31,833 nt of DNA from a virus, in the IMG/VR virus record IMGVR_UViG_3300034104_006991, positions 1-31,833 of that record, one strand, 5' to 3'. The position numbers and the translations under genes are program-made. Shown one piece after another: positions 2,299-23,146 of the stretch. The notes beneath the pieces are model-generated. The model did not search any database. It was not told the DNA's origin and saw nothing but the letters and a program-made list of their open reading frames with translations. How positions within the stretch are numbered: position 1 is the stretch's first letter; the number at the start of each line of letters is the position of its first letter.

Positions 2299-4932
2299 CT
2301 AAATCGCTTGCTGCGCGATGTCGAGCGCCTTCACCACCGCTTCGTCGGGATGGTTCAGCAGCGGCTCGGTATGTTTGTCGGTCTCGCGACGAACGGTCTT
2401 GGTAAGCGACATCAACTCATTCACGATGGATTGTACTGAATCCACGCGGCCACCAGACTTGCGCTGCGCGCGCGGCTGCATCTTCATCTCGGTCCATGCG
2501 ATGACATCGCCAACCGTCTTGCCCCTCATCACTTCCGGATTGGAGTTGATGACGATTGGCTTGAATGCATCAGCGGTTGGCATCGATGGGTCCAATCGAA
2601 GAGCCCGCATCGCCCCTTGCAATCCAAGGAAGTGCGACAGATACAGATTTGCCGGCGTTGCCTCAAATCCGTTTCTGCGCAGCCCCTCTGCGTTTTCGTT
2701 GATATAAATCGGACCAAGAACCTTCGCCATCTCCACGCCTTGAGCGGTCTTCTTCAGCGCGTTGAGTTCTGCGTTCGACATGTTGCTTGTCACTTCCGGA
2801 TAGTGACGACGCGCCATGTCGCGCCATGTCTCGTTGATGAATTGATACGGACCATACGCAGAGCCTCGAGGATTCTGCGCGGTTCCTTCGTTGCCAAAGA
2901 TTTGACTGATGGTTTGCTGCTCGACAGGTCGCTCAAATTGAGTCAGAGCCTGCTGCAGTTTTTCGCGGGACTCTTCTGTCAAATCGGATTTCGAGATTTC
3001 CTGAATGGCCGACTCTCGTTGCTTGTCGTTCTTGGGCTCGGGCGGCAGCGCGCTGCCCTCCCATCCAACGGGGGGCTTCGCGTACTCCGGCTCCTGAGGT
3101 TTCGCGCTCGGGTCTTCTTGACCAAGCAGGTATTCGTCGCGAACGACCCCGGCATACCCCGCGGCGCGCGTGGCTGCGGGCGGCGTTACCTTGTCGCCAA
3201 CTCGCTCCAAGTCGCCTGCCCACTTCTGAATCTTGCCCTGCGCCTTGGGAGACGCCGCTATGAATCCGGCCACGGCGTGCGGCGCGCTGCCGGCAAACCA
3301 CCCGAGCATTCCAGACACGGCTCCTCGAGAGCCTTCCGGCATGAACTTCGATGTCGCAGCGCCGGCAATTGCAGGCTTGAGGTTAGGGCTGTATTGCGCA
3401 ATCTCCGATAGAACTTGCTGCTGCTGCGGAGATGTTGCCTTGAGCAACCTCTTCACGATTTGGTCGTCACTCAACTTGCCGGTTCTTCCAAACATCGACC
3501 GAACGGCATCGATGGTGTTTGACGCGTCTTCGTACTCGCCCATGATTTTTACATAGTCGGCGTCAGCGTCCGCGATTGCATCCCAAATGGATTGACGAAC
3601 CTCTTGCGCGGCACGATACGCTTGAGTATCGCCCGTGTAGGTCTCGCCAAGACTTCCGATGGAACGCTTCAACTTGTCGGCACCAATCACATTTCGAGCG
3701 GGAGAGTTTAGCGGCTCCGACGCTACGGCGATGGTTCGCTGCTCAGCATCATCCAAGAATCTCAGCGCGGCATCTGACACCGGGACTGCGCCGTTCTGCG
3801 TGTTAATCGTCAACTGCTGACGAAGGTCTTGGATTTTCTGGCCGACTCTTGCGAAGTTGACAGGATTGGCTCGACCACCCATCTCCGCAACATACGCCGC
3901 CTGACGAGCATCCTTTGCGCCCTGCAGACCTTCCTCCGCGTACCTGACGATTTTGGAGTGGTCAGCGCCAGAGCGTTGCATCTCGGCAAGCACCGCGCGT
4001 TGCTCTGGGGTGCCGCTTTTCGCAATCTCGTTGACTTCTTTCAAAATCGGCATTGGAACGCCGGCCAACTGACTTCCAACTGCTCGTGACGCGCCGAGCA
4101 AGTTAGGGGTCTTCTTTCCACCAATTACGGGCACAGCGTCGGGAATCCGCGTGCCAACAAGCGGCGTTTTTGCCACTTTTATGGATGCTTGAATCGGGTC
4201 AAGGTAATTCGCCGCATCTCGCGCTTTGGTCGCTGCCTTCGCAACGCCTGCAAACCTTTCAGCGCGTGCGACATTGCCTGCGGCCTCCGCGCCTTTGGCT
4301 ACTTTTGACGCCGCTCCGGCCGTGGCTGACGCGCCGCCGGTGAGCAACGCAGAGGCATCCATAAGGATGGTTGCCGGGTCTTTCGCAAGAGCCCTGAGGA
4401 ATCCCTGCTTCGACCCATACCTCGTGGAATAGTCGTCGATGAGCGCATTGATGACGCGTTCGTCTTCAGGGTCTACATCAAGACCAATCGCGCCTTTTGC
4501 CTTTGAGAGCGCGCCAGTGCCAAGTTGCTTCAGGCCTTCAGCGGTTTGGCTTGGATTTGCGATGGCGCCGGCCACCGATTTGACAACGCCCCATGTGCTT
4601 GAGGGCAGGTTGGTTGCGCCCTCTCTAAGGGCCTCGCCAACCGTGTAATCCTTTTCGGATTCCGCTGCGGGCGCACGCAATTGCTGCCTGACCGTCAGTT
4701 CTCGAGCGGGAACCTTCGGCGCACCGGCAGGAATCGGCTGACCCTCGACTGTCCTGACCGCGGCGGAACGAGAGTCTCCCTCACTCGGTTGCAAGATAGA
4801 CTTCTCGAAATCACTGGGCCTATCGCCTGAAGCGGGCGCGGCAACACGGCCAGAAGAAGCCACAGGCGCTGCAGCCGCTCTCGGGTCGTAGTCGTCTTTC
4901 AGGTCAAGTGCTGCTTCAAAATCGCTTGCCAT
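2299..4932 (-). CDS. Virion lytic transglycosylase / DNA-ejection type protein
   Basis: An 877-aa protein. Residues 1-650 are Ala-rich and mostly helical, with an Ala/Gly-rich apolar stretch near 185-205 and charged helical segments; no domain is recognised there. Near residues 675-800 is a lysozyme-like transglycosylase (SLT) region: catalytic-type Glu682 in GNEGTAQNP, then SAYGPYQFI and a W-x-D-x-A-R-R stretch. Virion transglycosylases of this kind (T7 gp16, P22-type ejection proteins) ride in the head or tail and open a local hole in peptidoglycan during genome entry. A KSGGRV motif near residue 820 recurs in other virion proteins here. AAGG of the ribosome site overlaps the TAA of the upstream 1657-aa gene, so the two are probably co-translated. 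The transglycosylase call rests on motif reading; the N-terminal role is inferred. Confidence 0.82.
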
Positions 4933-4941
4933 TGACAGACC

Positions 4942-7900
4942 TTACTGGTTCCAGATGATGTTGGAGATACCCGGCAGAATAGGGCCATTCGGCTCGGGGT
5001 CGCCATTCGCGTCACGGACAATTTGACCTTCCGCGGTTCGCTTTGGGCCGTAATGCAGGAACGCCGCGTATTTGTTGATGCGCTCCGGAGTCTGACCGTT
5101 CTTCCGCAACCAGTCGAATGCGGACTCTCCCGGCTTGGAAGACTTCGTCCGAAGAAGACGCTCAATCATCTCCTGCCGAGTCTTGTATGCGTTGTCGTTG
5201 AACAGTGCTTCGTTGCGGAACGCTGTGCGCAGATTGTCCATGGAAACGAAGTCGCTCATGCCCGTTGGCACCATTGACTGCGATTCACGCATGTAGTTCT
5301 GCATGTCGATAGCACGCTGTTTATCGACCATCATCTGAGCAAGGAGCGTCTGCATCGACGCCTTGTCCAATTTCATGTTAGGAACGGACGCCGACGCCTC
5401 TCGCAATGCAGCAAGAGAGTTTTGGTCCGCGCCGCTCGACTGCAGGAAGGTCAAAGCAGTCGTCAATTTGTCGATGGCATTACCAGTCGTCAAATCCTCT
5501 GCCGCAATAAGTCTCTCCGGCGGGACAGGCTGACCAATGGTTCCAAATGCCGTGGTGATGATGTCGTTGTACGCTTTCGCAAAATATCGACGCGGCTCAT
5601 TCAAAACGCCTGCCGCAGCGACGCCGCCATCAGGCAGTTTGCTGACATCCTTCGCAATCATGTTGATGATGCTGCCGCGGCCATACGCATCGGCTGCCGC
5701 GTCTGAAACTTCTTTCAGCACGGTTTGATTCTCTTGCAATCGCAGCGCGCGTCGTGCGTTGTCGTCGCCCGCGAAAGTGCGAAGGTCAGTGCGAATGGAG
5801 TTCTGGCCCTGCTGACCGACCCAGTTTCGAGTGCCAGAGAGCGGCGCGTTCTGGCTCATCTCTGAGGCTTGCGCGGCCAGAGACCCTTCGGGAGGGGGCG
5901 CCTCTTCCACTTCGCCATCTGCAGCCTCTCCCTGCACGGAGCGAGTCATGGGAGTGGCCACGGCTTCCGGCGCTTTGCCGCGCAGAAGGTTAGTCATCTC
6001 GTCCTGCGCGATGAGCGGAAGTTTTGCTTGGTCCTGCGGAGTCAACTGCATGTACTGACCCAACAGCATGCGAGAGCCGTCCTTGAAATAGACCCACTGG
6101 CGACCGGCTTGGTCTCGAATCTGCGCCGACTGAACCTGCGCGCCGGTCTCAACGCGAGTCTGCTCCGTCGATGCTCTCGCCTGCTCGGTCTGCGCGCGAA
6201 CCTGTTGCAACTCGGCCTGACGACGCTGCACATCCTGATACGAACGACCGGCCGCACCGGCGCCAACGAGCAGCGCAGAGATTCGGTTCTCGGTTGGCGT
6301 GGCGGCTGCCGCTGCGGCGCCGGTCAACACCGGGAACAACAGGTCCTTGTTCCTTTCGAGCCATCCTCGAGCACGGTCCGCCATGCCCGGCGATTTCTTC
6401 GCCTGCAGGTTGATGGTGCCAAGATTCGGTTCCGGCGGCGGAGCAAGCCCCGAGGATTGCGGGGCAGCATTCGTCGCGGGCGCAAGCCCTGCCGGCGGCG
6501 GCGCGCTTTCACGCTCTCGCTCCATCTCCGGGTCTTCGCTTTCGGCCGCTCCACCGGCTGCCATCTGACCAACGCGCTTCGACTTGATTTTGACTTCCTG
6601 CAGGTCTTCCGGCTTCGGTGCGGTCGCGCCCTTGTACATCCCGTAGACCTGAGCCCCGGTGTCCACGATGTCCTTCAAGTCGTCCATTGTCGAGCGCGCG
6701 GCAGGCAGGTCGCCCGCAGTCTGCAGTTCGGGGATGTCCATCGAAGTCGGGATGGCGATTCCGTTCACGGGCTCGTAGGGCATCACCTGCCCACCGCCGG
6801 CCTTCATGAACTTCGGCGCAAGACCGTTGGCGTCTTCGGTCGCATCATAAGGCAGCACAGGGCCGCCATCCGCACGCGCGAGGCCGCCACGATATGTCGC
6901 TTTGCGGCCCGTGACCATTTCGTCCATGCCCGTGGCCACGCTTCCCGGCTGAGTCGTGGTTGTCGTCGTCGGCGCAGGCGCGGGAGGCGTCGCGGGTGCT
7001 GAGGGCGCTGAGGGTGCCGGCGTTCCCATGACTTTGCCGCTCAGGTCGTACAGACTGCTTGCGGTGTTGGTCAACTGCTCCAAGTCGTCTGCAGAAGACG
7101 GGCGAGGGGCCAGTCCCGGCGCGACCGTAAGTTGCCCCACAGGCAGCGTCGCGTTCGGCACATATCCGGCGCCACCCGGCACTCCGGACATGCTGCGACC
7201 GGCCGCGGCGTGCGGCCCGTACATCTGCGCCTGCGCGGCAATCAACTGCGCGAGGTCGAGGCCGCCCATGACAGGTGTGCCACCATCGGCAAACTTGGCG
7301 CGACCAACAGCCTCGGGATGCTTCTTCTCGACCTCATCCGCCATGAGACCAATCTGCGTCGCCGGTTCGCCCTTGATGTTGTACGAGTAGATTTTCTGCC
7401 CGTCGTAGGTGTGCCCGATGTGCTTGATGTTTTCTTTGACGCGACGGTCAGACATCATTGCTGCCATCTGGACAATTGCCTGCAAATCTTTTGAGCGAGG
7501 GTCTTCGCTGTACAAGTTGCTCTGAGCGACGGCAAGTTCGGGGGTTTTCGCAGGCTCATCTGGAATGCCAGACTGCGCCTTGGGAACATCCACGGTTTGC
7601 GGAGGCTTGAGCCCGGCCTCCTGCGTCATGTCGTCGTTCTTGGTCTTGATGTCTTCCGCTTCTTTCTGGCGGCGCAATTCATCGGCCTGACGCTGCGCGA
7701 CCATCGGGTCCGGACCCGCGAGTCCGCCGTTTGCAAAGCCCATGCCGGCATGCTGCGGCTTGACGCGGCCGCCTTCCATAGCCTTGCCCATCTCGGCAGC
7801 GTCTTGCGTGGCCGTGTCGTAGTTGACGGTCTTCAGGCCGCCCGCGAGGCCGACCGCTTCGGGGTGGTCTTTCTCGACTTCCTGTGCCATGAGACCCATC

Positions 7901-9915
7901 TGGGTCTGAGGCTGCCCCTTGTAACGGAACGAGTAGATGGGCTGACCATCGAAGGTCTCACCGACCTTTCGCACATCCTCTTTCGCGCGGACATCCGACA
8001 GGATGGAGCCCGGCTGCCGAGTGGTCGTCGTCGAACCCGAGAGCGCACCGGTGCCCATCGCGATGTTCGCGAGGAACTGGCTGACTTGGAACGGGTACGC
8101 GACCGACTGCAGGAACTGGTTGTACAGCGCCTGCAGGCCTGCCTGCCCGGTCTGCTGCTGAATCTGACCTGCAGCCATCTGAGCCTGCCCGCCCTGCAGC
8201 GCCGCCTGCTGCGCGCCAGAGCCAAGGCCTGCCATGGCCTGCGAGGTGCCCGCTCCCATGCCGTAAAGGCCCTGTCCAAGCCCCTGCCGCGCCTGCGCGG
8301 CGGCGAGGTCCTGACCGAAGGCCTGCTGACCGATGGCGGCCTGCTGCTGAGAGCCGGTGACGCCTTGACCGAACAACTGCTGCCCGAGTCCCTGCATGGC
8401 CTGACCACCAGAGATGCCCTGCCCGAACAACTGCTGCGCGAGAGCGGCCTGCTGCTGCGCGGCGCCCGTGCCCTGCCCGTAGAGCAACTGGCTGAGCGCG
8501 GCTTCCTGCTGAGCCTGCGACATGCCTTGGCCGAAAATCTGCTGCGCAAGCGCGGCCTGCTGACCGGCCGTCGTCGCGCCCTGCCCGAACAGAGCCTGCG
8601 CGGCAGCCTGCTGCTGCTGAGCGGCAGTTGCACCCTGTCCGAAGATTTGCTGCCCGAGCCCGGCGGCCGCCTGCCCCGTTCCCAACTGCTGACCGAAAAT
8701 CTGCTGCGCCAGTGCAGACTGCGCCTGCGCCGAGGCCATGTCCTGTCCGAAGCCCGCCTGCCCGATGCCAAGCAACTGCTGCGCAGCCGCGGCCTGCGCC
8801 GCACGGTTCGCCTGCTCGGCCCCGAGCCCGACGCCCTGCTGCTGCTGCGCGGCGCCGAGCGCCTGCCCGTAGCCCTGCTGCAGGAGGTCTCCAAGGACCT
8901 TGCCCTGCGCCAACTGCTGCTGCTGATTCAGGTTCGCAGCGACGATGCCGGCTCGGTCACCGCCGAAAGCCCCCGAGCGGATGGCGTTGCCCAACTGCTC
9001 GGACTGCGCCTGCTGCGCCTGCTGATTCAGGAGCGCCGCGGTCGGCGCCACCACGCTCGAGAGGAACGGGCTCATGTACCTGTTGATAGCCGCCGAGTCG
9101 AGTTCGGACGGATTGACCCCGCGCGCGCCGGCAAGGCCGAGCGCGGTCGAGACGGCCTGATACGGGGAAGCCCCCGCTCGAGCGCCTCCAATGGTGTCTG
9201 CGGCGGCCCCCTGCAAGGGTGCAGCAGCCCCGGGGGCGCCGGCAATCGACGCCCCTGCGAGGCCGTAGAAGGGCGCAGCGGCCATCTGGCCGGCCTGCAA
9301 CTGCTCGAGGGCCGACTGAGTCAACCCCTGCCCCTGCTGCTGTCCTGCCGCGAGGTTCTGCAAGGCCGCCGTCTGGACCGGCGCGGCGCCGGCACTGGCG
9401 TCCGCCTGCGAGGAAAGGGAGGCCGCCGCCAACTGGCCGCCAATGTCCTGCGCCGCGCCGATGTTCTGGACCGCCTGAGCCTGCAAAGGGTTCGCGTAGT
9501 CGCCGGCGCCCTGATACGCCGCACCGGCCATGAGGTTGTACGGCGTCGCACCCGCAAGGCCGCCGTAGTACGACTGCATGGCCATCCGGTTGTAGATGTC
9601 GCCGACATCCTGTCCCTGCGAGATGTCGTTGGCCGCCTGCTGATAGAACGGCACCGATGCCATCTGGCCGCCCATCAACTGGTTGGTGGCTTCGTCGTAG
9701 TAGGGCTGCGCCTGCCCCGTCGCGTAGTTGATGTTCTGCATGCCCGCCAACTGCGTCGGCGTCATGGGCGCTACGAATGCGTTCGGGTCGTCCGAATAGG
9801 ACTGAAACGGCGTCCCCGCGGTCTGCTGCGCCTGTTGGTTGACGGCGTTGTACCGCGCCAGAACCTCTGGCGGAATCTGAACTGATTGCGTGGATGTCGA
9901 GGATTTGCCGCCCAT
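4942..9915 (-). CDS. Giant Ala/Gln-rich virion protein with two internal S74-type auto-cleavage motifs
   Basis: A 1657-aa protein, the largest gene in the window. Residues 1-620 are Ala/Gln/Gly-rich and contain ten exact 18-residue repeats (387-566). Two segments match the short S74 intramolecular chaperone domain. The first begins at Ser640 (SDVRAKEDV, then GQPIYSFRYKG, GLMAQEVEKDHPEAV). The second begins at Ser822 (SDRRVKENI, then GQKIYSYNIKG, GLMADEVEKKHPEAV). Both keep the Ser...Lys pair five residues apart (S640/K645, S822/K827) used for self-cleavage in endosialidase-type tails. Further on are Gly-Gly motifs (ADGGP, KAGGGQV), an apolar stretch near 1192-1208, a coiled coil near 1226-1270 and a helical C-terminus. 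The position before the ejection-type transglycosylase suggests an internal or ejected virion protein. GGAG lies 6 nt before the ATG. Confidence 0.88.
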   Translation of the reverse strand: MGGKSSTSTQSVQIPPEVLARYNAVNQQAQQTAGTPFQSYSDDPNAFVAPMTPTQLAGMQNINYATGQAQPYYDEATNQLMGGQMASVPFYQQAANDISQGQDVGDIYNRMAMQSYYGGLAGATPYNLMAGAAYQGAGDYANPLQAQAVQNIGAAQDIGGQLAAASLSSQADASAGAAPVQTAALQNLAAGQQQGQGLTQSALEQLQAGQMAAAPFYGLAGASIAGAPGAAAPLQGAAADTIGGARAGASPYQAVSTALGLAGARGVNPSELDSAAINRYMSPFLSSVVAPTAALLNQQAQQAQSEQLGNAIRSGAFGGDRAGIVAANLNQQQQLAQGKVLGDLLQQGYGQALGAAQQQQGVGLGAEQANRAAQAAAAQQLLGIGQAGFGQDMASAQAQSALAQQIFGQQLGTGQAAAGLGQQIFGQGATAAQQQQAAAQALFGQGATTAGQQAALAQQIFGQGMSQAQQEAALSQLLYGQGTGAAQQQAALAQQLFGQGISGGQAMQGLGQQLFGQGVTGSQQQAAIGQQAFGQDLAAAQARQGLGQGLYGMGAGTSQAMAGLGSGAQQAALQGGQAQMAAGQIQQQTGQAGLQALYNQFLQSVAYPFQVSQFLANIAMGTGALSGSTTTTRQPGSILSDVRAKEDVRKVGETFDGQPIYSFRYKGQPQTQMGLMAQEVEKDHPEAVGLAGGLKTVNYDTATQDAAEMGKAMEGGRVKPQHAGMGFANGGLAGPDPMVAQRQADELRRQKEAEDIKTKNDDMTQEAGLKPPQTVDVPKAQSGIPDEPAKTPELAVAQSNLYSEDPRSKDLQAIVQMAAMMSDRRVKENIKHIGHTYDGQKIYSYNIKGEPATQIGLMADEVEKKHPEAVGRAKFADGGTPVMGGLDLAQLIAAQAQMYGPHAAAGRSMSGVPGGAGYVPNATLPVGQLTVAPGLAPRPSSADDLEQLTNTASSLYDLSGKVMGTPAPSAPSAPATPPAPAPTTTTTTQPGSVATGMDEMVTGRKATYRGGLARADGGPVLPYDATEDANGLAPKFMKAGGGQVMPYEPVNGIAIPTSMDIPELQTAGDLPAARSTMDDLKDIVDTGAQVYGMYKGATAPKPEDLQEVKIKSKRVGQMAAGGAAESEDPEMERERESAPPPAGLAPATNAAPQSSGLAPPPEPNLGTINLQAKKSPGMADRARGWLERNKDLLFPVLTGAAAAAATPTENRISALLVGAGAAGRSYQDVQRRQAELQQVRAQTEQARASTEQTRVETGAQVQSAQIRDQAGRQWVYFKDGSRMLLGQYMQLTPQDQAKLPLIAQDEMTNLLRGKAPEAVATPMTRSVQGEAADGEVEEAPPPEGSLAAQASEMSQNAPLSGTRNWVGQQGQNSIRTDLRTFAGDDNARRALRLQENQTVLKEVSDAAADAYGRGSIINMIAKDVSKLPDGGVAAAGVLNEPRRYFAKAYNDIITTAFGTIGQPVPPERLIAAEDLTTGNAIDKLTTALTFLQSSGADQNSLAALREASASVPNMKLDKASMQTLLAQMMVDKQRAIDMQNYMRESQSMVPTGMSDFVSMDNLRTAFRNEALFNDNAYKTRQEMIERLLRTKSSKPGESAFDWLRKNGQTPERINKYAAFLHYGPKRTAEGQIVRDANGDPEPNGPILPGISNIIWNQ
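8218..8757 (-). repeat. Ten tandem 54-bp repeats encoding an 18-residue unit
   Basis: The region encodes ten consecutive units of exactly 18 residues (residues 387-566 of the 1657-aa protein). The consensus is roughly Q-x-F-G-Q-G-x-x-x-A-Q-Q-Q-A-A-L-x-Q; example units are QIFGQGATAAQQQQAAAQ and QLFGQGVTGSQQQAAIGQ. The aromatic-Gly pair is kept in all ten, and no unit changes length. One more unit-like segment (QGYGQALGAAQQQQ) lies upstream but out of phase. Confidence 0.9.
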
Positions 9916-9916
9916 C

Positions 9917-10405
9917 TTATGCTCCGTTCATCCACGCTCCAGTCCGCGCGCCATAGAGGAAGAAAGCCCCGCTAGGTTTCCCGAACTGGCGCTCGTACAA
10001 GCGCACCTTCGCTTCGGTGCGATGGTTGGATAGTACGCCGATGATGAGAGGGATTCCAAGGTCATCGGCTACCTTTTTGCTGAACTCGCAGAGTTTTCGC
10101 GCGCGACCGCCTTTGGCGCTGCGATATTCGGGATGCGTGAACACGGCGCGCTCCTCAACCACGAGAGTGTCGGAGTACCACATCTGACCGATGCGCAGCA
10201 GCACGCACGCCTCTATCAACTTGCCGGGCTCACCAATGACGCCGACGATGCCATGGTCCTGATGCAGTGCCGGCCAGATTTCCGCGGCCAGTTTTCCCGG
10301 GTTCGGATTTAGGAAACCGTTCTCCTCGACGGCCACCATCGCAATCTTCATGATTTCGTCGAGGTCTTCCGGAGTGCCAACTCGAACCTTGATGTCATTC
10401 GTCAT
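9917..10405 (-). CDS. GNAT-family N-acetyltransferase-like protein
   Basis: A 162-aa protein using the ATG at 10405. AAGGA (10412-10416) sits 6 nt upstream, and the alternative TTG at 10411 would overlap that site. The layout is GNAT-like: an N-terminal VRVGTPEDLDEIMKIA helix, central strands, a FTHPEYRSAKGGRARKLCEF segment standing where the acetyl-CoA-binding loop and helix lie, and a C-terminal YERQFGKPSGAFFLYG strand. Acetyltransferase-like proteins are common between head-tail and ejection genes of short-tailed phages, where their substrate is generally unknown. Modification of a virion or host protein is possible. It begins 2 nt after the upstream gene's TGA. Confidence 0.78.
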   Translation of the reverse strand: MTNDIKVRVGTPEDLDEIMKIAMVAVEENGFLNPNPGKLAAEIWPALHQDHGIVGVIGEPGKLIEACVLLRIGQMWYSDTLVVEERAVFTHPEYRSAKGGRARKLCEFSKKVADDLGIPLIIGVLSNHRTEAKVRLYERQFGKPSGAFFLYGARTGAWMNGA

Positions 10406-10407
10406 GG

Positions 10408-11007
10408 TCAATCCTTTTTCGGGGGAGGAAGTTTCTGCAGGGTCTTGATGGTCTCAGCGCGGAACCGCTTGATGAACTCGTCGAGCGCGCGATGCCCGAG
10501 GTCCATATCGCCCTTGCCGACCTTGCGAACCTCATCGGGAGAGAGAACATACTCACCGCCCGCGGCTACGATGGGAACGGAGCCTGTCTCCCCGCCTGAT
10601 GCGCGGCCGGGCAACGGCATGTCGTATGGCGCGCTACCTTTCGAGTACGGCGCGGGGCCTTGCTCGTAGGGCGTGCCGCCGAACATGCGCTTGATGCGCT
10701 TGAAGCCGGCCATCGTGTTGCCCTCGCCCATGGCCGAGACGATGTCGGCGGGGATGACATAGGAGCCCGACGGGACATGCATCGGCAAATGGTCTGTGCG
10801 GCCGGCAACGGCGCTGTGAATCGGGCCCGTGTGCAACTTCTTGCCACCAGACTTCGGCGATGACGGCATGTGCAAACCGCCTCGAGCGGATTCGCGCGCA
10901 GTCTGCAACGCTGCGGCAACGGCTTGGGTCTGCGGATGACCGGCGTGCGTCATTTCGCTGATGTTGCCGCTGATAATTTCTTGAGACTTACCCTTGTGCA
11001 GTGGCAT
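10408..11007 (-). CDS. Conserved phage protein with Gly-Gly motifs
   Basis: A 199-aa protein of unknown function. It contains SYVIPADIVSAMGEGNTMAGF and EYVLSPDEVRKVGKGDMDLGH, two similar elements that both place a Tyr-Val-(Ile/Leu) strand ahead of a (Pro)-Ala/Asp-(Glu/Ile)-Val helix, suggesting an internal duplication. Several Gly-Gly motifs (SARGGLH, KSGGKK, RASGGETG, VAAGGEY) resemble those in other virion proteins of this operon. The C-terminus is basic. It sits between beta-rich tail proteins and the acetyltransferase. The ribosome site is a G-run 6-7 nt before the ATG. A structural or assembly role is inferred from context only. Confidence 0.75.
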   Translation of the reverse strand: MPLHKGKSQEIISGNISEMTHAGHPQTQAVAAALQTARESARGGLHMPSSPKSGGKKLHTGPIHSAVAGRTDHLPMHVPSGSYVIPADIVSAMGEGNTMAGFKRIKRMFGGTPYEQGPAPYSKGSAPYDMPLPGRASGGETGSVPIVAAGGEYVLSPDEVRKVGKGDMDLGHRALDEFIKRFRAETIKTLQKLPPPKKD

Positions 11008-12259: not shown

Positions 12260-12684
12260 GACGCCGCTCCGCCCGACGCTGTGATGGTGCAGCCGGCCGC
12301 CGACGCCTGAACCTGCAAAGTGTCTCCCGCGGCCATGGCAACAGAACCGGTCCACTGCATCGTGCTGTACGCAGGCAGCGACGCGTTGAAGAAGATAGCG
12401 TTCGACGCTCCTGCAGTGCCTCCAGACGGAACCACGGACACATAAATTCCGATGGCCGCTGCGGTGGTGTTGCAGATGTTCATGTCTACGATGCATGCGC
12501 GCTGACCAAGCGGGCAGGTATAAAGCGTTGCCCAACTGGTCGTCATCGCCGCCTGACCAATCTTCGACAATCCACCAAAAATAGCCAACAGATTCGCAAT
12601 CGCCTGCGTGTAGCGGCTGATGTCACCAAGAGCGACGACGCCATTCTTCTGCGTGGTAAGAATATCGCCAAGAGAAGTAGACAT
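12256..12684 (-). CDS. Small beta-sandwich virion protein
   Basis: A 142-aa protein whose start codon overlaps the upstream stop (TGATG); its own TGA overlaps the next ATG. Residues 1-40 form a helical N-terminus (ALGDISRYTQAIANLLAIFG). The remaining residues form strands ending GDTLQVQASAAGCTITASGG, a pattern seen in small phage tail or fibre proteins. It lies between the tail-hub gene and the FGRLRVS-type protein and is translationally coupled to both, which suggests they are made in matched amounts. Function beyond a virion role is not visible. The reading frame extends further upstream inside the tail-hub gene, but only as an overlap artefact. Confidence 0.78.
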   Translation of the reverse strand: MSTSLGDILTTQKNGVVALGDISRYTQAIANLLAIFGGLSKIGQAAMTTSWATLYTCPLGQRACIVDMNICNTTAAAIGIYVSVVPSGGTAGASNAIFFNASLPAYSTMQWTGSVAMAAGDTLQVQASAAGCTITASGGAAS

Positions 12685-14768
12685 CAGAACTTCCCATCCG
12701 GTTTGATTCGATAGCGGATGTTGCCGATACGCCAGAAACTGCCGACATCGTTGCTCGAGAGTTGAATTGACATCAGGCGACCGCGAAACCGCGGAGAGAT
12801 GTATTGCGTCGCTTGCGTGACCGGATACGGTCCGTACACCTTCGGGGTTTGCCCGGGGTAATCTGCGACATAGAAGGTAATGTTGACCGTTGCGTTCTGG
12901 ACTCCACCAAAGTAGCCCCACTTCATGTCCGGCCACACTTGGTCCACATAGGTCATCTGGTCGCCTTCCGCGATGGCGAACCATCCTGTGCGCACCGCCG
13001 GCAGCATTGCTTGACCGTCCGCATCCGGAGAGGTCTCGTGCTGATAGATGTAACCTGTGTTCGGGTCTGCTCCGATGGGCGGCCCGAGAACCGACTGGTC
13101 TAACCACGCGGAGCGCGACAATGACCCGTAGTCCCACGCTTGCAGCAGCGTGTTGTATTTCACATACGCGTTGATTTCGCCACCATTGCCGGTGGTCGGG
13201 TAGTACCACGCCACCTCCCCGAATCGAGAATTGGTAGCGATGCGAACCTTGTCGATGTTGTTCTGGTCGATGTCCTGAAAAATCACATCCCACAGCGGGC
13301 ACGGAAGCGGCGTTACACCCTCTCCCGACAGCATGTAGAACTGACTTTGAGACATCCAGTACACCACACCGCCCAAAGACGCCGCCGCCTTCTGCGCAAT
13401 GAGGCCGCAGCCGGTGCCAAGTTCGTTGAACGAATAGACATACGGAGCGCCGGTGTACTGCATCGCCCACACGCCGAGGTCTGTCCAGATAAGGCCCTGT
13501 TGCGGACCTTGAATGCATCCAACAATCTTCGAGCCTTTTGGAATGCGATACGAGCCCGCCTGATTGGTGATTGACGCAACCCACTCGTTGTAGTTGTTGA
13601 CATCGCACCAACGAATCAACAGCGGGTCTTCAATGCCAGTAAAAGTAGAGCCCCACGCGACAATCTGCCTCTGCGGCATCGCAACAAACGCGCCCATGTT
13701 CTTTGCGGGCGAAGTAGGAATAGCCTCTGCAATTGGCGCACCGCTTGTCGGGTCCCACAGATAAACTGGTGCAAAAATATCGTTGTTGCGCGGGACTGCG
13801 ACAAGGATTTGACCCCAGTTGTCTAGCGTCCAATCGTATGCGTCAATCGGGTCGCCATAAAGCGTTGCCGTCGCAGGTCCTGTGCCGTATCCGCCAGAGC
13901 CATATCCACCAACGCCGTATCCGCTGCCGATAGGAATCGCGCCGACGCCGTAACTGTATCGAAACCTGACATTTCCGCCGTTGATGAATCCGGACGCCGA
14001 AGAAGTTGCAACCGTGCTTGCAAAAATAGTGAAGTTGTCGGCGTCCACGATTGTGCGAATCGTGTAATTGCCAAAGATAGTTACGCCGCCGACCGTGGTT
14101 GCAACAAGACACGGATAGGTATCGCCAACCTGATAGCCGTGATTTGCCAGTTCCACATTGACGGTGTATTGACTTGAAACCGTGGTGAACTCCGCAACCA
14201 AGCCGCCCGCTGTAACGGTCGAAGAAGCGAGAAACGGCTCTCCAAGCACATTGATAGCCGTGATGTTGTACTCGGTTGCAGACACATACACCATCGGGTA
14301 AAGACCAAAAAGAATGACGCCGCCGACTGAGACATGAGTCTCGATGTAAACCGTGTTGAACCCGATGAGGCCAACTGTGGTGGCGTCCGTGACCTTGACT
14401 ACCGGACTGCCGGCAGTCGTGTCAAAATCTTCCGCAATGTCCGTCTGCTCCGAGCGCGGAGTGATGAATATTTGCACGCCATTCGTGAGGACTGACAGTA
14501 CAGACTCATCGGTGAGAGGGTCAGATTCCTGACCGATAGCGAGATGCGACTGGGAGTTCGTGTCTTCCCACCCCCACAAAGCGCGCACTGGCGTTGCGAA
14601 AGTGTCGTTGAAGAATTTCACCCATCCGCCCAGTTTCTGGACAAGGCCAAGACCGTTCCTGTCCGGGATGAAGCGAACAAGGTTGGAGGTCGAAAGACCA
14701 GTCTCGTTGAGCGCCGGCGTTTCGTTCTGGTCGATGCCCGGCTTGACCTTGAGCGAGGCGTGCGGCAC
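12684..14768 (-). CDS. Tail hub / P22 gp10-like stabilisation protein
   Basis: A 694-aa protein with a GTG start 3 nt after the upstream TAA. The opening (SLKVKPGIDQNETPALNETG, then NLVRFIPDRNGLGLVQKLGGW) is typical of short-tailed-phage tail proteins that wrap the portal-adaptor exit. Repeated strand-turn blades follow (LWDPTSGAP, VAWGSTFTGIEDPLLIRWCD, WTDLGVWAMQYTG, VYWMSQSQFYMLSGEG), consistent with a beta-propeller nozzle such as P22 gp10 or T7 gp12. A Gly/Tyr-rich segment (GYGVGGYGSGGYGTG) lies near residues 265-285. The preceding adaptor-like gene supports a tail-hub role. No strong ribosome site precedes the GTG, so coupling to the adaptor gene is likely. The specific subfamily is inferred. 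Confidence 0.82.
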   Translation of the reverse strand: MPHASLKVKPGIDQNETPALNETGLSTSNLVRFIPDRNGLGLVQKLGGWVKFFNDTFATPVRALWGWEDTNSQSHLAIGQESDPLTDESVLSVLTNGVQIFITPRSEQTDIAEDFDTTAGSPVVKVTDATTVGLIGFNTVYIETHVSVGGVILFGLYPMVYVSATEYNITAINVLGEPFLASSTVTAGGLVAEFTTVSSQYTVNVELANHGYQVGDTYPCLVATTVGGVTIFGNYTIRTIVDADNFTIFASTVATSSASGFINGGNVRFRYSYGVGAIPIGSGYGVGGYGSGGYGTGPATATLYGDPIDAYDWTLDNWGQILVAVPRNNDIFAPVYLWDPTSGAPIAEAIPTSPAKNMGAFVAMPQRQIVAWGSTFTGIEDPLLIRWCDVNNYNEWVASITNQAGSYRIPKGSKIVGCIQGPQQGLIWTDLGVWAMQYTGAPYVYSFNELGTGCGLIAQKAAASLGGVVYWMSQSQFYMLSGEGVTPLPCPLWDVIFQDIDQNNIDKVRIATNSRFGEVAWYYPTTGNGGEINAYVKYNTLLQAWDYGSLSRSAWLDQSVLGPPIGADPNTGYIYQHETSPDADGQAMLPAVRTGWFAIAEGDQMTYVDQVWPDMKWGYFGGVQNATVNITFYVADYPGQTPKVYGPYPVTQATQYISPRFRGRLMSIQLSSNDVGSFWRIGNIRYRIKPDGKF

Positions 14769-14771
14769 GGA

Positions 14772-15542
14772 TTAGCGTCCCGGCGAGGCGGCCACAGCGG
14801 GCGACGCGGATGACCACGACGACGCTTGGAACTTCTTGCGCGCTTCCTCGACGAATGCCGACTTTAGCAGAGCCTGATACTGCGACTCGTAGGTGAAGCC
14901 CATTTCAGGGTCGTTCGCTGCGGCGCCGAAATTGCGTTGGAACATGCTGATGTAAATCATCGACGCCAACATCAGCAGGTCCGGAAGGTAAGTGCTGATG
15001 AAAGTGTATTGCGTGTCAGCGTCACCGACGACCGCGAACTTGTAGAGCGACGGCAGACGCTTCGTGCCCTTGACCGTCACCGGATACGCGGCGTTCGGAG
15101 TGGGCCCGAACAGGATGTAGTTGTACAGGTTGCCGCCCGGAGAGTCGCCTCCGTACATGGCAAAGAACTTTGGCATGCCGGTGAACGCCGTGTCGTTGTA
15201 GACATTCTGCAGGTACTCTTTCGTCACCGGCAGAAGCGGAATCTTCGCGGTGCCGGAAGTCACCTGCATCGTCTCAATCGCGACGAAGTCGTCTACATCA
15301 ATCTCGAGGATGGGATTGCTCGGCGTGAGCGTGAAGGTTCCGGTCTGCTGAGACGGAAGAAGGTCGAGGTCTCTCTGGATGCGCAACTCTGCGTAGTTGA
15401 GCATCTGTGGGATGATGGCAGTGAACGGGGGGTCCACCCCCTGAACAACCCCGCCTACGCTCTGCGTGGCCACAACGGCCATCACGCCGATTTGCGTGAC
15501 ATAGGCGTTATAGGACAGGGGGTTTGTCTGAGGGTTGCTCAT
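14772..15542 (-). CDS. Head-tail adaptor-like protein (phage adaptor family)
   Basis: A 256-aa protein. The segment IIPQMLNYAELRIQRDLDLL (residues about 44-63), followed by a strand-rich core, matches the usual phage adaptor pattern in which an early helix carries AE-x-R-I-x-R-D-L. The C-terminal third is helical (YESQYQALLKSAFVEEARKKF). Such proteins sit as a ring under the portal and receive the tail hub, as P22 gp4 or T7 gp11 do, and the next gene is the tail-hub protein. A second adaptor-like gene lies at 22457-23146. No clear Shine-Dalgarno sequence is visible before the ATG (the region reads CCACCCCT), which is unusual in this operon. Confidence 0.82.
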   Translation of the reverse strand: MSNPQTNPLSYNAYVTQIGVMAVVATQSVGGVVQGVDPPFTAIIPQMLNYAELRIQRDLDLLPSQQTGTFTLTPSNPILEIDVDDFVAIETMQVTSGTAKIPLLPVTKEYLQNVYNDTAFTGMPKFFAMYGGDSPGGNLYNYILFGPTPNAAYPVTVKGTKRLPSLYKFAVVGDADTQYTFISTYLPDLLMLASMIYISMFQRNFGAAANDPEMGFTYESQYQALLKSAFVEEARKKFQASSWSSASPAVAASPGR

Positions 15543-22456: not shown

Positions 22457-23146
22457 TCAGGGACTGAAGTAGCCGGAGATGAGCGGAGAGATGTACTGCG
22501 AGGCAGTCTCGATGTTCTGCGCCGCGGCGATGTCGTAAGCCTCATCGGCCAACGGCTTGAGGATTTGGATTTTCTCCGGCGCCCATATCATCGCCAGACG
22601 CTGCGCGAGGCCGTATGCGAATGCCTCCATGAAGTAGTAGGGCACCTCAACATTCTTTCCGTTCGACAGGTCCGCATCTTGAATCTGGCGCACCCGGTAA
22701 TAGTCGAACGAGGCCTGCGTTCCATCAGGGACCGGCCAGAGCGTCACCTGCGGCGAGAGAAGGCGGTCGAACCAATAGGTCGTCGGGAACCCGCGCTGTT
22801 GCGGATTCGGATACGAGGCGTACTCCGAACGCGAGATGGGCAGGATGAGACGGTTGATGGAGGTGCCGCCAGAGGTCTGCACGACATACGCGTCGAGCAT
22901 GACGATGGTATTCGAGGGCACCGAATAGGTTGCCTGCCCCGCGATGAGCGGGACAGACTGCAGGTCAACGCACCAAAGATTTACGCCTTGACTGCTCCAA
23001 CGCCCAAGAAGCAGGTTCGACGCCATGCGCGCCGACTCCATGTGCTCTTGAAGGAGTGCAGTGTTCCTGATGCCGCAGAGGTTGAATGCGTATAGCGTCA
23101 ACTCTCCTAGCGACGGATTGTAGGCATAGGTGCCACTTGTGGCCAT
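22457..23146 (-). CDS. P22 gp4-like head-tail adaptor / DNA-stabilisation protein
   Basis: A 229-aa protein with GGAGG 6 nt upstream. The opening (NPSLGELTLYAFNLCGIRNT) leads to a helix ESARMASNLLLGRWSSQGVN followed by LWCVDLQSVPLIAGQATYSV and a strand-rich core (ISRSEYASYPNP, TYWFDRLLSPQVTLWPVPDG). This order matches tail accessory factors such as P22 gp4, which plug the portal after packaging. The C-terminus is helical. It lies upstream of the zinc-ribbon and fibre genes. Together with the adaptor-like gene at 14772-15542 the phage has two proteins of this general type. Confidence 0.83.
   Translation of the reverse strand: MATSGTYAYNPSLGELTLYAFNLCGIRNTALLQEHMESARMASNLLLGRWSSQGVNLWCVDLQSVPLIAGQATYSVPSNTIVMLDAYVVQTSGGTSINRLILPISRSEYASYPNPQQRGFPTTYWFDRLLSPQVTLWPVPDGTQASFDYYRVRQIQDADLSNGKNVEVPYYFMEAFAYGLAQRLAMIWAPEKIQILKPLADEAYDIAAAQNIETASQYISPLISGYFSP

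Follow-up and report, generated by a model that had tools for sequence, protein, structure and literature searches.

Self-cleavage by peptidase S74 domains is known to serve the shedding of the fibre chaperone and, in the case of MYRF, the freeing of a transcription factor. Their Ser-Lys dyad is spaced five residues apart, as exemplified by S911/K916 and S587/K592 (PMC8326128). In MyRF the chain is cut between P586 and S587, and either of the substitutions S587A and K592A stops the cutting (PMC8326128). Trimers are needed for this reaction, with the coiled coil being the main driver of trimerisation, and abnormal cut sites arise from point mutations at F666, at residue 667 and at V669, all close to where the last helix begins (PMC8326128). 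Among phage proteins, the phiGT1 record remarks that the structural protein of this phage carries a C-terminal S74 domain, and UniProt holds entries of 1300-1500 aa from uncultured phages under the name "Intramolecular chaperone auto-processing domain containing protein". Hence, S74 domains in long proteins of uncultured phages have already been annotated but, as far as we found, not discussed; in the literature searched, we found neither an ejection protein described as having S74 nor a protein described with two such domains.

The window analysed here, a 31,833-nucleotide stretch of viral DNA (IMG/VR record IMGVR_UViG_3300034104_006991), contains an open reading frame for a 1657-aa protein with an ATG start (4942..9915; the coordinates of this protein, its parts and its two flanking genes all refer to the (-) strand). 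It is matched twice by the Peptidase_S74 profile PF13884, at residues 640-688 (copy 1; 7852-7998) and 822-870 (copy 2; 7306-7452), with each match covering profile positions 1-57/58 and with scores of 37.5 and 32.2 bits, respectively, both above the curated cut-off of 22 bits. The dyads are S640/K645, within the segment S640-D-V-R-A-K645, and S822/K827, within S822-D-R-R-V-K827. Thus, the original prediction of two S74 motifs with intact Ser-Lys dyads is borne out, and its positions, the spacing of 182 residues between S640 and S822, and the products of 639, 182 and 836 residues expected from cuts before each Ser are exact.

The first of the segments so delimited, residues 1-639 (7999..9915), is identified by its sequence profile as an N-terminal ejection-protein domain and would be the first product if S640 were cut. 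This part is rich in Gln and Ala and shows no evident triple beta-helix. It includes a tandem repeat of 54 bases, or 18 aa, of the form "..AAxAQQLFGQGxx.." (8415..8625; TRF period 54, 3.9 copies); the repeat is Gln-rich, and changes in repeat number may partly explain why the start of S74 varies between residues 189 and 640 among relatives. Copy 1 comprises residues 640-704 (7804..7998), and in it S640 (codon 7996..7998) is, from the conservation of the Ser, the predicted nucleophile, with the cut falling before it, and K645 (codon 7981..7983) is, from the conservation of the Lys, the predicted general base. It is separated by a variable linker, residues 705-821 (7453..7803), from copy 2, residues 822-870 (7306..7452), which bears S822 (codon 7450..7452) and K827 (codon 7435..7437). 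Further towards the C-terminus, profile matches define a domain termed C2, residues 1213-1594 (5134..6279), which is a separate gene of 535-555 aa in some relatives. A Pfam profile search found no wall hydrolase inside the window protein.

Both copies belong to a short S74 type, the layout of which consists of an SDxRxK motif, a hairpin, the segment xIGxMADEVEKxxPEAV, and a YKTVDY strand followed by a short helix. Two elements set apart the tail-fibre S74 domains encoded in these loci, namely an additional helix and a C-terminal coiled coil; the ejection type lacks both. The trimerising C-terminal coiled-coil helix is absent from both window copies, copy 1 having just a 16-residue helix, and for this reason we file the window S74 as a variant and not as a canonical ICA domain. 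Single-sequence searches found no solved structure of the short type, and canonical ICA structures were found by profile only: the short-S74 sequence profile recovers 6f45 (a fibre; 1e-5), MyRF 7dc3 (8e-5) and the GA-1 neck appendage 3gud (0.016). In a single-chain AlphaFold2 model, the fold of copy 1 is complete, with the last strand and the 16-residue helix present and a mean pLDDT of 86.5. A Foldseek search of the PDB with this model ranks three MyRF ICA chains (7dc3) first, at an E of 0.054, and VIA-align 2 gives Z 4.7 and an rmsd of 2.5 over 63 residues, in a range that begins after the dyad, with the next rows at or below 2.7. The model thus points to a modest structural match of copy 1 to the MyRF ICA domain.

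What argues most strongly against taking cleavage for granted is the lack of the coiled coil; the absence of an evident triple beta-helix from the N-terminal part also counts against it. The lack of the coiled coil underlies the main rival explanation, rather doubtful in our estimate, according to which the short S74 would fold and hold oligomers but not cut, would have been carried along in gene fusions, and the full-length protein would be packaged. The absence of the tail-fibre-type helix is likewise in keeping with such a role, as is the existence of podovirus ejection proteins that are long single chains, for instance T7 gp16 of 1318 aa (PMC8954989); moreover, the literature searched yielded no report of cleavage by this type of S74.

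Conservation across the family bears directly on this alternative. Searching IMG/VR with the entire window protein as query yielded 80 loci, most of which encode long proteins (1000-2000 aa) that have S74 deep in the chain. An S74 alignment run against GTDB genomes brought in 80 further prophage or phage loci, mainly from Alphaproteobacteria; the short-S74 ejection family is common in environmental phages and alphaproteobacterial prophages. The dyad is invariant: the Ser and the Lys at +5 are kept in all 152 unique S74 copies, drawn from 246 loci, and in all 76 of the non-redundant copies (<85% identity), with Thr never replacing the Ser or Arg the Lys. Across these 76 copies, the mean column identity is 39%, and the columns free of variation are S, D, K, G, A and V. 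Since G, A and V lie inside the peptide pattern used in the genome scan, their invariance is partly by construction, and outside this pattern the invariant columns are S, D and K alone. The strict retention of Ser over Thr and of Lys over Arg suggests that chemistry, rather than packing, is being preserved, and an S74 domain that never cuts leaves it unexplained in a domain where most other columns vary.

The same collection shows that an internal S74 is common in the short-S74 ejection-protein family: about 47 of the 121 non-redundant S74 ORFs sampled extend for more than 150 residues beyond their last S74, and of the remaining 74 the majority stop shortly after it. This, taken together with MYRF, whose S74 domain is internal and cuts (PMC8326128), makes the premise that S74 normally occurs once, at the C-terminus, too strong. 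Two S74 domains are present in 13 distinct ORF sequences of the sample. In a tree of 114 copies, built on 63 columns and informative for shallow forks only, the second copies require at least three label changes and fall into groups formed by the window protein with its closest homologue L167, by L026/L034/L036/L037/L048/L052/L081, and by L065/L071/L074. Second copies therefore arose at least three times, and the window protein is not unique in having two. That copy 2 arose from copy 1 by recent tandem duplication within the window phage was considered and rejected, as the tree, on few columns, pairs each copy with the corresponding copy of L167. In some fused ejection proteins a DUF4214 domain lies behind the first S74 (L065:7001-12631, L176:4951-10437).

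Comparison with L167, a protein of 1767 aa with S74 at residues 640 and 850, reveals that the two copies of the window protein are not equivalent. Loss of the dyad in close homologues had been named in the original prediction as evidence that would speak against it; both dyads are intact in L167. Copy 2 of L167 carries GSVNGFKTVDYDRATEVAANA after PDAV, and these 21 residues are lacking in window copy 2, which breaks off after PEAV and so has lost the last "K-T-V-D/N-Y" strand and the helix behind it. Among the 76 copies the V of this strand is present in 74 and the Y in 73, and the only other copy seen without it is that of L076, in a similar loss. The AlphaFold2 model of copy 2 has a pLDDT of 71 and loses strands and the end of the fold. 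(L167 itself lies on a 54-kb contig, JASGCE010000001.1, in a Candidatus Paceibacterota MAG; the contig is probably phage, and may be mis-binned or reflect a real host link.)

This truncation makes the predicted cutting at S822 doubtful, and two products are consequently more likely than three clean ones. Cleavage at both copies, with release of the 639-, 182- and 836-residue pieces, is thus in our view unlikely, even with both dyads intact in the window protein and L167. In its favour, no segment is better conserved between these two proteins than copy 2, with 82% identity, as against 70% for copy 1, 41% for the linker (residues 701-800) and 37-46% for the C-terminal part; the rough dN/dS, with synonymous sites near saturation, is 0.09 for copy 2 and 0.14 for copy 1. 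The independently arisen second copies also have an intact dyad in every case. Against these observations stand the absence of a VNY strand and helix found in nearly all other copies, the loss of the fold end in the model, and the finding that abnormal cut sites already result from the above-named MyRF point mutations at F666, residue 667 and V669 (PMC8326128).

The origin of the fused architecture can be read from relatives in which the N-terminal domain and S74 together make up a complete gene of about 330-620 residues. Residues 4-385 of PHROG 4287, a 392-aa DNA ejection protein, align with residues 1-331 of the 1318-aa fused protein L013, ending where its S74 ends, and PHROG 6121 aligns with L013 residues 90-337; the window protein itself matched PHROG 6121 and 4287 mainly at S74. 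A profile of the fused N-domain, built without S74, detects four unfused proteins in matches that span almost the entire profile, namely L188 (384 aa; 5.7e-39), L186 (9e-38), L217 (1.8e-35) and gp27 of Sinorhizobium phage phiM5 (1.3e-23), all of which have S74 at the C-end. The N-parts of the other unfused proteins gave no significant match to this profile. The annotation of phiM5 gp27 lists it among the proteins detected in the phage particle by proteomics.

Where the proteins are unfused, the S74 gene and the one after it share 4 bases in 14 of 66 cases and 1 base in 10, and abut in 4; a few of these cases are tail-fibre S74 genes. In several of the relatives the gene that follows carries a cell-wall transglycosylase. 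In L217 this gene, which overlaps by 4 bases, codes for an SLT transglycosylase domain and shows homology to the segment following S74 in the fused L003 (blastp, 46% over 119 aa, 1e-23). By eye, the fused L039 and the separate next gene of ppBeUSDA76-2 terminate in the same peptide, GYRxKGGxPxxxxSWExV, of which a close variant stands at the end of the next gene of EBPR podovirus 2. A scan of 35 fused proteins gave 15 matches to wall-hydrolase families (SLT 6, Hydrolase_2 4, lysozymes 3, GH108 1, amidase 1), which lie behind S74 in every case placed. The link between fused parts and downstream genes rests on blastp and Pfam matches, chiefly to the wall-hydrolase part, and C2/C1 profiles, used to look for homology of C2 or of the region following S74, gave no significant match to the proteins encoded downstream in phiM5, phiGT1 or EBPR podovirus 2. 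The PHROG, profile and next-gene evidence together indicate that S74 marks, in the fused proteins, the place where a gene once ended.

A cut at this former border would restore the ejection-protein piece, which makes the polyprotein idea plausible for copy 1. The terminal position of S74 in the unfused relatives suggests in turn that polyprotein processing was not its original task; the predicted cut would shed merely about 65-80 residues there, and the retention of the domain in proteins where cutting changes so little is a further point for a structural, uncut S74. The family is also split or fused at a second place, given that C2 is elsewhere encoded on its own, by a gene of about 540 aa whose start lies 4 bases ahead of the upstream stop (L046:10786-12426, L053:11686-13317, L058:11605-13215, L068:11830-13437). 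As this place is unrelated to S74, it might be taken to suggest that S74 is just the C-terminal assembly chaperone of the ejection domain, with the C-terminal part processed elsewhere or not at all and copy 2 a decaying relic, as its truncation and the similar loss in L076 would allow. The strong conservation of copy 2 relative to L167 and the coincidence of the fusion border with S74 in other relatives run counter to this, and we hold it to be highly improbable.

The gene for the window protein belongs to the structural module. Directly upstream lies a gene for a GNAT-like protein (9917..10411; Acetyltransf_7 8.8e-4, below cut-off; phrog_1249 2e-7), and the order of a GNAT-like gene followed by an S74 ejection protein is common to the window, phiGT1, EBPR podovirus 2, RHph_N2 and MW202675. 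A GNAT-like gene likewise directly precedes the S74 ejection protein in Sulfitobacter pCB2047-C, and the phiGT1 record ties its GNAT-like protein to P22 gp14 and T7 IVPA. Downstream, a gene for an 877-aa protein with a transglycosylase-like C-terminal part (2299..4932; phrog_4067 7.5e-18) is likely to encode the next internal virion protein; in both the window and L167 the wall hydrolase is in the next gene and not in the S74 protein. The window protein is itself probably carried inside the virion. Elsewhere in the window, two genes (14772-15542 and 22457-23146) match PF24175 SU10_adaptor (2e-14 and 4e-11), a possible dual tail adaptor comparable to the dual tubeA of the phiGT1 family, and the protein encoded at 12684-14768, which otherwise matches a virion structural PHROG, has a weak match to End_beta_barrel, an endosialidase beta-barrel (5e-5, below cut-off).

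On the whole, we lean slightly towards a fused ejection protein in which copy 1 serves as an autocatalytic joint and copy 2 is probably impaired, giving two main products. Under this proposal, an ejection-protein gene would have fused with further internal-virion domains behind its S74 and gained a second S74, the first 700 residues being a DNA-ejection protein with copy 1 as its C-terminal domain. The N-terminal part would assemble or oligomerise first, with assembly as the presumed trigger, whereupon the S640/K645 dyad would cut before S640 and free the 639-residue ejection protein. The remaining 1018 residues would stay in one piece on account of the damage to copy 2. The domain identity, the invariance of the dyad, the fusion border in relatives and the truncation of copy 2 are computed results; the cutting, the oligomer trigger and the virion location are what we infer from them. 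The polyprotein route originally proposed is supported for copy 1, for which the fusion border, the invariant dyad and MYRF as the best solved match speak, and is weaker for copy 2, which has lost its last strand and helix.

More generally, we tentatively suggest that the short S74 might be a reusable self-cleaving joint at the borders of fused ejection and wall-hydrolase genes, with extra copies adding cuts, and that it might constitute a polyprotein system in the virions of tailed phages that dispenses with a separate protease. If so, tailed phages would have an assembly-coupled polyprotein route to internal virion proteins that needs no separate protease, and the freeing of wall-cutting enzymes from a larger chain could be timed. 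The prediction, namely chains beginning at a defined Ser, is accessible to ordinary virion mass spectrometry.

The window copies share with the canonical fibre S74 the Pfam match over positions 1-57/58, the Ser and Lys five apart and a profile that finds 3gud and 6f45, but they are not at a fibre C-terminus, occur as two in one chain, have an ejection protein as N-terminal partner, and lack two helices, the long one of the coiled coil and one between strands 1 and 2. The MYRF ICA domain resembles them in its position in mid-protein, in the conserved Ser-Lys dyad and as the best structural match (7dc3), and differs in its coiled coil, beta-helical stalk, membrane anchor and proven cleavage (PMC8326128). 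The S74-terminated podovirus structural or ejection proteins (PHROG 6121 and 4287, phiGT1_17, phiM5 gp27, EBPR podovirus 2 gp27) have the same short S74, its Ser lying at about residue 277 of 342 in phiGT1_17 and at about residue 391 of 468 in phiM5 gp27; the N-domain type of the fused proteins is shared by phiM5 gp27, L188 and L217, and the place of the S74 protein after the GNAT gene by phiGT1 and EBPR podovirus 2. Unlike the window protein, these end 4-18 residues after S74 and have the downstream parts as separate genes. Finally, the internal virion proteins of T7 and P22 are comparable, judged by position and domains, in their place in the structural module and their link to wall-cutting domains, and differ in that S74 is not mentioned for them in a review of ejection proteins (PMC8954989).
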